Source: Bacteroidaceae bacterium
GTDB lineage: Bacteria > Bacteroidota > Bacteroidia > Bacteroidales > Bacteroidaceae
Reading direction: 5' to 3'
Length of the DNA: 37,560 nucleotides
NCBI GenBank assembly: GCA_024398515.1
Contig: JAKSIZ010000022.1
Coordinates: 1 to 37,560, forward strand
Of this stretch, positions 115-37,204 are shown in pieces. The notes under the pieces were generated by a model. It had not been told where the DNA came from. It was given only the letters and a program-made list of their open reading frames with translations, and did not search any database. Position 1 is the first letter of the stretch. Every line of letters starts with the position of its first letter. The position numbers were made by a program, and so were the translations under genes.

Positions 115-194
115 ACATTCTTAGAATGTTCGGCGGAACATTCTAAGAATGTACACGTGAACATTCTAAGAATGTGCAAACGACTATAACGTTC
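115..194. repeat. Triple-palindrome element 1 (arms ACATTCT)
   Basis: Three 15-bp palindromes start at 115, 138 and 161, an exact 23-bp period with 8-bp spacers. Arms are ACATTCT/AGAATGT around a single T, A and A. The motif CGACTATAACGTTC (181-194) follows; it is the reverse complement of the motif found to the left of elements 3 to 5, so this copy appears inverted. It sits between the end of the partial gene and the promoter of the WalJ-like gene. No counterpart of the AAGCGTTC end is seen on the other side. Function unknown. Confidence 0.85.
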
Positions 195-9658: not shown

Positions 9659-9757
9659 GAACGCTTAGGTCGGAAAAACATTGCAGCAATGTTAGTCCCA
9701 ACATTGCTGCAATGTTGACTCGAACATTGGAGCAATGTTTGAGCGAGTCAAGCGTTC
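9659..9757. repeat. Triple-palindrome element 2 (arms ACATTGC)
   Basis: Palindromes of 15 bp start at 9678, 9701 and 9724, an exact 23-bp period. Their centres are A, T, and a variant GGAGC with one mismatch. The element is bounded by inverted ends GAACGCTTA (9659-9667) and AAGCGTTC (9750-9757), total 99 bp. It lies between tRNA-Cys and the end of the PD40 lipoprotein gene. It has the same length and unit sequence as element 3, more than 13 kb away. Confidence 0.88.
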
Positions 9758-20564: not shown

Positions 20565-21470
20565 TTACTTCCATAATGGTTCCATCTCCCAACCTTTTGG
20601 GAAACCCATCGAAGCGAGGTCAATCTCTGGAAAATCCACAAAAAGCCAACGAAGTTTTGCAAGCATATCATTGTTAGGATTTACGACATTCAAAAGATAC
20701 TTGATTATACAAATGTCATGATATACCCTAAGAGGGTCTGTAGGCAGAGTTATCCATGGATGAGCCAAGCGATTTGGTATGGTTGGATTCATCGTATTTC
20801 GCTTATTCCAGACACGTGCATGATGAGCACAATCATTACGAGTGAGATATAATTTTGTCATCCAACTCTCAAATGGTGGTACTTGCAAACCAAACTGCTG
20901 TGAAACTTTCTTTTTGATTTTCTTATCCTTAAGATTGCTAAAAATATTTGTAATATATCCGAAAGGCAAAATCTCGGCAAGCATCCATACTGGTGGATAT
21001 GGATTGGCGTGGCTTATCCTATACTCTGTTATGAAATCCTCATGAGATCTACTTACTTCTTTGTTTATCAGGGATAGGGTGTTGGCAAATTTGTTCGCAT
21101 CAGCAAAATGAATAGGATTGGTCATCCAAAATTTATCTTCTGTCATTTCGCAGATTGTGCTGACAATGGTAGCACGTATTGCAACTTCTACTTTCTCTAT
21201 TTCGTTGAAGATGAGCATTCTTAACTTTTTATCAAAGCGATACAACATCATAACCTGATGAAAAGATGCATCTCGTTTGAAGCGTTTTGCTGACTTAGGC
21301 ATTGTCAATAAAGGTATCATGTAAGCCGATAACCTATAATAGCCAATAGTTGAAAGGTAACGTTCTGCCTTTTTCCGGTTTGTAATGTTAAGACCTCTTG
21401 TAATCAAGAACTGTATCAAATCACTTATATTCTGATAAGGCTCTGCGAAAGGAGTGGGTGTTATTGCCAT
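20565..21470 (-). CDS. Abi_2-family (AbiD/AbiF-type) HEPN abortive-infection protein
   Basis: A 301-residue protein of the Abi_2 family. The N-terminal IGYYRLSAYMIPL and MLYRFDKKLRMLIFNEIEKVEVAIR are hallmark segments. RNDCAHHARVWN at 211-222 contains the HEPN RNase signature R-X4-H (Arg211, His216). Such proteins cause growth arrest or abortive infection, probably by RNA cleavage, and some are paired with an RNA antitoxin. It stands alone between carbohydrate genes, convergent with the heparinase-like gene (25-bp gap), which fits a laterally acquired defence gene. A consensus promoter and a leader with a hairpin plus oligo-U precede it. Confidence 0.9.
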   Translation of the reverse strand: MAITPTPFAEPYQNISDLIQFLITRGLNITNRKKAERYLSTIGYYRLSAYMIPLLTMPKSAKRFKRDASFHQVMMLYRFDKKLRMLIFNEIEKVEVAIRATIVSTICEMTEDKFWMTNPIHFADANKFANTLSLINKEVSRSHEDFITEYRISHANPYPPVWMLAEILPFGYITNIFSNLKDKKIKKKVSQQFGLQVPPFESWMTKLYLTRNDCAHHARVWNKRNTMNPTIPNRLAHPWITLPTDPLRVYHDICIIKYLLNVVNPNNDMLAKLRWLFVDFPEIDLASMGFPKGWEMEPLWK

Positions 21471-21483
21471 GAGTTATTTGTGT

Positions 21484-21516
21484 AAAAAAAAACGACCCAC
21501 ACATTTGAGCATCGTT
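21484..21516 (-). promoter_or_regulatory. Leader hairpin with nine-T run before the Abi gene
   Basis: On the minus strand AACGA (21516-21512) pairs with TCGTT (21495-21491) around a 16-nt loop, running directly into a nine-T tract (21492-21484). An alternative ACCC/GGGT pairing is also possible. It sits 14 bp before the Abi start and about 20 nt after the expected transcription start, so it may act as an attenuator or end a short leader RNA of about 50 nt. The stem is weak. Confidence 0.4.
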
Positions 21517-21542
21517 GAGAGGCTTGGCGGGTTCTGGTGGTG

Positions 21543-22776: not shown

Positions 22777-22875
22777 GAGCGTTATAGTCGAAAAAACATT
22801 GCTGCAATGTTGGTCCGAACATTGGAGCAATGTTGGAGTCAACATTGCAGCAATGTTTGACGTAGTTAAGCGTTC
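22777..22875. repeat. Triple-palindrome element 3 (arms ACATTGC)
   Basis: Palindromes of 15 bp start at 22796, 22819 and 22842 (period 23). The left motif GAGCGTTATAGTCG is at 22777-22790 and the right end AAGCGTTC at 22868-22875; total 99 bp, the same as element 2. The unit order differs from element 2: here the variant GGAGC unit is in the middle. It lies between the esterase terminator and the ECF sigma gene. Confidence 0.88.
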
Positions 22876-29570: not shown

Positions 29571-29691
29571 GAACGTAATAGTCGGGAAAAAACTGTAGCA
29601 GTTTTCGATCGGAAACTGTAGCAGTTTTGACTTGAAAACTGTAGCAGTTTTCTGCGAAGTATTAAGGACATTCTCGTAAAGTTAAGCGTTC
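29571..29691. repeat. Triple-palindrome element 4 (unit AAACTGTAGCAGTTT)
   Basis: Three identical 15-bp units start at 29590, 29613 and 29636 (period 23). Arms pair with one G-U wobble in RNA of this strand. GAACGTAATAGTCG is at 29571-29584 and AAGCGTTC at 29684-29691. It lies in the 415-bp divergent gap 29380-29794, which otherwise holds only the two promoters and AT-rich sequence. Confidence 0.88.
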
Positions 29692-36977: not shown

Positions 36978-37085
36978 TTGCAGAAATACTCCGTAAAAAC
37001 AAACATTTCTGCATCTGAAATCATGAACTGTTGACCTTCTTGCGTTCTTGCTTTGGCATGTGACGAAGTCGATGACTCAAGACGT

Positions 37086-37204
37086 ACGTTATAGCCGAAT
37101 TAAAACTGCTACAGTTTTCATATCAAAACTGCTACAGTTTTCGATCCGAAACTGCTACAGTTTTTTTTCAACTATAAGGCACGTTTCTATACATCCTTAC
37201 GTTC
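37086..37204. repeat. Triple-palindrome element 5 (unit AAACTGCTACAGTTT)
   Basis: Three identical 15-bp units start at 37103, 37126 and 37149 (period 23). The unit is the exact reverse complement of that in element 4. ACGTTATAGCCG lies on the left (37086-37097); CAACTATAAGGCACGT on the right begins at 37169, with ACGTTC further out at 37199-37204. It follows tRNA-Lys and its terminator. The 629-bp region 36932-37560 has no supported gene. Confidence 0.85.

Follow-up and report, generated by a model that had tools for sequence, protein, structure and literature searches.

Evenly spaced triple-palindrome elements in a Bacteroidaceae genome as possible operators for dimeric DNA-binding proteins

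Five elements in the window and their anatomy

The window, meaning the whole 37,560-nucleotide stretch of DNA analyzed here, is contig C15 of the Bacteroidaceae genome G000, an assembly of 2.65 Mb in 90 contigs that is 87.8% complete. It carries five elements that share a single layout: a conserved flank of 14 bp, a further 5 bp, and a core of three 15-bp palindromes (P) and two spacers in the order P-alpha-P-beta-P (Table 1). All five align ungapped across 81 bases. An earlier sequence-only reading had placed five elements here, each with three palindromes repeating every 23 bp, and this description holds for the entire set, the period being exactly 23 bp in each. Its division of the palindrome into 7-bp arms around one central base needs amending, as the constant unit of period-23 elements has 6-bp arms around three central bases; the seventh arm pair is Watson-Crick in many units and is missing in 65 of 66 AAACTG units, which have CTA or TAG at the centre. 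An abiF RNA (53.9 bits to Rfam RF03085) also lies in the window, next to an ORF of 301 aa, and together they are perhaps an abortive-infection locus.

Table 1. Coordinates of the elements and of the abiF locus in the window
Feature	Position	Strand	Details
E1 core, class C (ACATTC)	115..175	-	palindromes 115-129, 138-152, 161-175
E1 inner flank	176..194	-	181-194 is exact GAACGTTATAGTCG on the minus strand
E2 left inner flank	9659..9677	+	GAACGCTTAGGTCG + 5
E2 core, class A (ACATTG)	9678..9738	+	palindromes 9678-9692, 9701-9715, 9724-9738
E2 right flank	9750..9757	+	AAGCGTTC
301-aa ORF	20565..21470		beside abiF RNA
abiF RNA	21495..21531	-	Rfam match
E3 left inner flank	22777..22795	+	GAGCGTTATAGTCG + 5
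E3 core, class A	22796..22856	+	palindromes 22796-22810, 22819-22833, 22842-22856; spacers TGGTCCGA, TGGAGTCA
E3 right flank	22868..22875	+	AAGCGTTC
E4 left inner flank	29571..29589	+	GAACGTAATAGTCG + 5
E4 core, class B (AAACTG)	29590..29650	+	centre TAG in all three palindromes
E4 right flank, shifted outward	29684..29691	+	AAGCGTTC
E5 left inner flank	37084..37102	+	GTACGTTATAGCCG + 5
E5 core, class B	37103..37163	+	centre CTA in all three palindromes

Conserved flanks on two sides of the core, GAACGTTATAGTCG and AAGCGTTC, had been described as separate features. Both are present, but they are the two sides of one module (GTTGAACGCTTAACTCG) that is inverted around the core. The second had been said to lie usually opposite the first; AAGCGTTC adjoins three of the five window elements, and an additional module of the CTGTTGGGGGTG type exists, accounting for 16 of 143 flanks. 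The remaining 127, when pooled, yield a GTTGAACGCTTAACTCG-type consensus, and the two modules are combined in differing ways among elements. Conservation outward from the core fades over ~85 bp, with traces of more 22-23-bp units. Searched by itself in the window with up to 3 mismatches, the flank motif shows only a modest excess, 7 matches against 2.6 expected (2 of 100 shuffles are as high); with 1 mismatch in the whole genome it gives 8, against 1 for a reversed control. The idea that the two flanks of one element form a closing stem was dropped, as flank complementarity gave no sign of it in any class. Over the 20 bases beside the core, the likeness of left and right flanks after reverse complementation is 0.558 in class A and 0.428 in class D, compared with 0.649 and 0.604 for random within-class pairs; classes B and C do not differ from random, and farther out no class differs.

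Copies across the genome

A scan for triple palindromes that assumes no letters was applied to 818 kb, comprising the window and stretches of seven other large contigs, or ~31% of G000. It returned 64 elements at period 23 and nine at period 22 with a 4-base centre, 73 in all, and no group comparable to these at other periods. The preference for period 23 is sharp. Across 435 kb (the window and stretches of C34, C12 and C1), a strict scan with 3-base loops found 36 matches at this period and none at periods 16-22 and 24-39, while a looser one added two evident chance matches (C12:107860 and C15:24656); one shuffled copy, scanned as a control for triple palindromes, gave one match. In the window itself, perfect triple palindromes occur at period 23 only, among periods 15-59 and loops of 0-5 bases. 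Overall, the palindromes are 15-16 bp long and come three to an element at the fixed 23-bp (or 22-bp) period.

A nucleotide profile run over the same 818 kb recovered all 73 elements and added just two damaged copies, for a total of 75, so intact copies prevail and no tail of relics is seen. Scaling this number to the genome gives an extrapolated ~240 elements. A model built on the five window elements alone finds at least 150 matches in G000, corresponding to at least 111 distinct loci on at least 50 contigs. The claim that the five belong to a family, which would have failed had the genome held no further copies, is thus well founded. Four of the 73 fall in ORFs of at least 100 aa, and these ORFs (112-140 aa) may be spurious. 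Contigs often end at elements: in G000, an element lies no more than 500 bp from 5 of the 12 ends seen; in the sister species G202, 67 ends are readable, of which 6 fall within or next to such cores and six more within CACACC arrays, a figure that is no measure of density as 8 of the 39 contigs were chosen for having elements. The repeats therefore probably break assembly.

Four sequence classes with near-invariant arms

The elements of the 818-kb sample fall into four classes by their arm letters: class A (ACATTG) with 31 elements, class B (AAACTG) with 22 including variants, class C (ACATTC) with 11, and class D (AAAGTTGTACAACTTT), which comprises the nine period-22 elements and lies entirely outside the window. 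The spacers had been described as not conserved, which does not hold within classes. Each uses a small set in both orientations (TCGAGTCA/TGACTCGA, TCGGACCA/TGGTCCGA, TCGATCGA, TCAAGTCA, TCACGTGA), and the palindrome centres likewise occur in both. In classes B, C and D the commonest alpha spacer is itself palindromic over its 8 bp (TCGATCGA, TCACGTGA and TCGCGCGA), and in class A it is nearly so. The sequence TGTTCACGTGAACA, which we take to be two bases short of the parS consensus, spans the alpha spacer of class C cores, including E1, and has eight copies in the 818 kb; a parS-like 16-mer does not occur there. At C34:114180 in G000, direct repeats of TTCGGTTGTTTG stand at 23-bp spacing.

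Between loci of one class, identity is 98.5-100% in the arms, 54-84% in the spacers and 0.48-0.67 in the first 20 bp of flank, declining to 0.27-0.32, near chance, at 61-90 bp (72 of 73 elements, omitting one class B element at the edge of a stretch). Every one of the 186 class A half-sites reads AACATTG, and the next base outward is variable. Even the closest pair of elements is just 59.5% identical over 200 flank bases aligned ungapped. The lack of recent copies and the near-perfect arms of old ones suggest that selection maintains the arms at nearly every locus.

Classes differ in all three palindromes together, and pairing is kept. Across 294 cells, 97.6% are paired (80.1% in shuffles) and both sides change in 12 of 21 pairs; these values come from 14 hand-picked elements of four arm types in two genomes, whose rows are not independent events. 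The covariation reported by the sequence-only reading is thus real between classes, whereas the few arm changes within a class are one-sided.

Even spacing along the chromosome

The elements occur about once per 10,000 bases and are nearly always intergenic. In the 818 kb, the 75 elements define 67 intervals, the shortest of 4706 bp. The longest, 48.8 kb in C56, contains a prophage-like stretch (~7-48 kb) that is free of elements and encodes an integrase, a PhageMin_Tail protein, a DnaG-type primase and a Clp protease; 10 of its 37 listed ORFs were searched, of which five have no family and one (PglZ/response regulator) is not phage-like. Leaving this interval aside, the mean of the other 66 is 10.2 kb with a coefficient of variation (CV) of 0.367, and 65 of them measure between 4.7 and 18 kb. 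The one exception, of 28 kb in C12, is free of elements though intergenic gaps are present. The minimum holds across classes, as 18 same-class intervals are no shorter than 5800 bp and 47 different-class intervals no shorter than 4706 bp. On contigs beyond the sample, 23 intervals among the matches listed have a minimum of 5078 bp, gaps there being upper bounds.

Chance does not readily produce this pattern. Under an exponential model, 24 intervals should be shorter than 4.7 kb, and none is observed. When the 73 elements (65 intervals) were placed at random on 135 intergenic gaps at least 200 bp long, the minimum never exceeded 1170 bp in 5000 draws, and every draw had at least eight intervals below 4706 bp. 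Random placement under hard exclusion reached a CV of 0.367 or less in 0.2% of draws (P about 0.002) and is less even than observed, and insertion with soft immunity gave mean CVs of 0.46-0.79 (0.457 at best), all of these being simple models. Gene context plays no visible part: the flanking genes of the 73 elements are oriented ++ in 20 cases, -- in 18, -+ in 15, +- in 11 and otherwise in 9, resembling the background (51, 56, 43 and 28). An idea of gene-strand polarity was dropped for lack of any orientation bias.

Relatives and the sister species

The system seems narrowly distributed. One model (R1) matched none of 19 relatives and, among 200 genus genomes, G202 only besides G000; a second (R2), run on 398 genus genomes, picked up G000, G202 and, in G118, a single array of different appearance. 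Such scans score the best 10-23 candidates per genome and can miss systems with other letters, because the models lean on the arm letters of G000. The G118 array (C5:33187-33281) was rejected as a member, consisting of about five AAAGTG/CACTTT hairpins at 21-22 bp without flanks of the G000 type. Congeners were picked via a protein search over 60 genus genomes. Scanned without regard to arm letters, 757 kb from 28 congeners yielded three triple palindromes with other letters, all at period 22: isolated intergenic arrays in G003 (L201:6604 and 10078) and G040 (L195:6923) with palindromes TCACCATGGTGA, AAAGGGT-like and GAGTTAACTC. Extending the scan by 60 kb in G003 and 20 kb in G040 brought no more, and 10 shuffles of these added stretches gave none. 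Isolated triple palindromes thus occur in congeners, and the dense array is seen in G000 only and perhaps G202. Exact 20-mers of classes A and B had no match in genome and viral contig collections, which possibly lack the nearest records.

G202 is 71-79% identical to G000 in long aligned stretches of nucleotide sequence. Its elements have the same architecture and similar flanks, the arms being AAGTTG where the period is 23 and AAGTTTTGCAAAACTT where it is 22. It also has palindrome arrays of a CACACCTNAGGTGTG-like type at 23-24 bp (C1:834, C207:20113 and the ends of C50, C180, C150, C350, C207 and C260), which are a further repeat family with other flanks; the CACACC arrays were left out of the membership count since their flanks looked different by eye.

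Positions are mostly turned over between the two species, as judged by orthologues of neighbouring genes. In 322 kb of G202, eight sites with such an orthologue lack the element, including two where the contig ends after just 300-410 bases (one of them with a CACACC array at the contig edge) and one resting on a 191-aa partial match. One site is shared: E2, of class A, faces a G202 contig start that bears a different core, AAGTTTTGCAAAACTT. One more, C1:102574, is ambiguous, with another gene in between. This count leaves out ~60-aa matches at C1:54402, C12:80990 and the right side of C23:21789, as well as C34:57775, where the contig runs on for only 68 bases. When 47 genes neighbouring G202 elements were searched the other way, against the 818 kb, six matched, one over just 45 aa; the outcome was one shared site, two near misses and two sites without an element, the shared site and one near miss being loci of the forward comparison. 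Nucleotide alignment alone placed no G000 element with both flanks in one of the G202 contigs compared. Four of the element-free sites were inspected for target duplication, and their intergenic sequence is too diverged to place the ends. Unrelated sequence in orthologous gaps, which the sequence-only reading had held to count against a family, is indeed what most testable G202 sites contain, and it reflects turnover of positions, not absence of the family.

Comparison with known systems

The element belongs to the broad kind of dispersed intergenic palindromic repeats. Among these, REP, BIME and REPIN sequences are short intergenic palindromic repeats present in hundreds of copies and associated with RAYT transposases. 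The likeness lies in size, location and copy number; the differences are three homogeneous units at a fixed period, four core classes and even spacing, as well as the conservation of arms alone in place of whole-unit identity among copies. MITEs have sharp terminal inverted repeats, in contrast to the smooth decay over ~85 bp and the flanks without special complementarity found here. MatP/matS, Noc and SlmA use palindromic dimer sites scattered over the chromosome, and conserved palindromes at many loci are common to both; those are single-site motifs of one specificity, as opposed to triple sites of several classes at even spacing. The ends of Mu and Tn7 carry arrays of ~22-bp sites and confer target immunity. 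Site arrays, inverted halves and mutual exclusion are alike, whereas the present elements have no sharp ends and no recent copies.

The BrickBuilt MITE of Porphyromonas gingivalis has a 23-nt repeat unit, is intergenic and species-restricted, and consists of repeats without spacers between a leader and a tail with small inverted-repeat ends, in 19 forms in ATCC 33277 (PMC4596501). Unit length, intergenic location and restricted range are common to both, and the elements of G000 differ in their palindromes with 8-bp spacers, lack of sharp terminal repeats and extrapolated copy number. At gathering score, no Rfam family matches any of the five window elements. PMC8040213 lists candidate palindromic RNAs from microbiomes, and a search of the open-licence literature that leaned partly on Prevotella and Bacteroidetes found no description of such repeats. 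The spacing rule and the class system lie outside all the families compared.

Proposed triple operators and their alternatives

Of the three options offered by the sequence-only reading, sites for dimeric proteins fit best, given near-invariant dimer half-sites at a fixed helical spacing. Each palindrome would be the operator of a dimeric DNA-binding protein and each element a triple operator seating three dimers ~2.1-2.2 helical turns apart. At least four specificities, corresponding to classes A to D, would operate in G000 and others in G202, presumably through paralogous proteins. We infer a role at chromosome scale because the even ~10 kb spacing is common to four specificities: the sites may act as boundaries of chromosome domains or of supercoiling, with selection keeping them neither too close nor too far apart. 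We give triple operators for dimeric proteins of several specificities, spaced by selection and perhaps bounding chromosome domains, a probability of roughly 45%. According to a review, topological domains in E. coli and Salmonella are of the order of 10 kb and may be defined by LacI or GalR loops (PMC10642903). Some observations sit uneasily with the operator reading. Among 398 genus genomes the models see the system in G000 and G202 only, a surprising range for a basic chromosome function; most positions are not shared with G202; and the 28-kb C12 interval has no element. When ORFs of 90-500 aa from the 818 kb were clustered by paralogy, no DNA-binding-like family of four emerged; just two clusters had at least three members, one with six proteins and one with three.

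A rather unlikely competitor is a MITE-like non-autonomous mobile element, moved by a transposase acting in trans and spaced by target immunity. It would account for a dispersed, mostly intergenic, high-copy and lineage-restricted repeat that occupies other positions in G202 and combines two flank modules variously. It is at odds with the absence of sharp ends, with arms that stay invariant while flanks drift, with the lack of recent pairs, and with a spacing more even than simple immunity models produce. Nor was an intact RAYT (Y1) transposase found in the 88% complete genome, where a search for the Y1 family gave a single weak match that scores 28.4 bits, covers profile positions 4-71 of 121 and has one internal stop. 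Recent action of the repeat-copying mechanism that the sequence-only reading had entertained finds no support in the flanks either. A mobile origin followed by selection is nevertheless compatible with triple operators, and perhaps likely, because the array is lineage-restricted. Large regulons of several ordinary transcription regulators with triple operators would share the dimer-site geometry and the mostly intergenic location, and the isolated other-lettered triple palindromes of G003 and G040 suit them; we consider them improbable, as they do not predict an even 10-kb spacing common to four specificities, and the gene contexts of elements resemble the background.

Two further readings carry still less weight. 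A genome-wide mark of self, read by a defence, uptake or DNA-repair system, would explain the even coverage of the chromosome, the gap at the prophage-like interval and the different motif of the sister species; it calls for a maximum spacing, whereas a strong minimum is seen, and we regard it as very improbable. RNA hairpins serving as terminators, small RNAs or processing sites, the remaining option of the sequence-only reading, seem equally hard to credit, or slightly more so. Each element does offer three perfect stems whose pairs covary between classes. Isolated hairpins are weak, however (-1.2 to -3.4 kcal/mol in five of six typed units and -6.6 in one), and the flanks of an element are no more complementary to each other than to those of other elements, which disfavours both RNA and cruciforms. 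There is no gene-strand bias, only a tRNA and abiF match Rfam in the window, and even spacing is left unexplained.

Taken further, triple operators could amount to a chromosome-wide boundary code. Selection would have set ~240 of them, of at least four specificities, at 10-kb steps, each would be recognized by a separate member of one fast-evolving family of architectural proteins, and sister species would have exchanged their letters in concert. In this full form the proposal is doubtful. To our knowledge, bacterial topological domains of ~10 kb are not tied to boundaries that are fixed and defined by sequence. A genome whose near-invariant sites are evenly spaced at this scale would make domain boundaries directly testable. 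That core letters change in the three units simultaneously, and also from one sister species to the other, poses a problem of concerted evolution between DNA sites and their readers.
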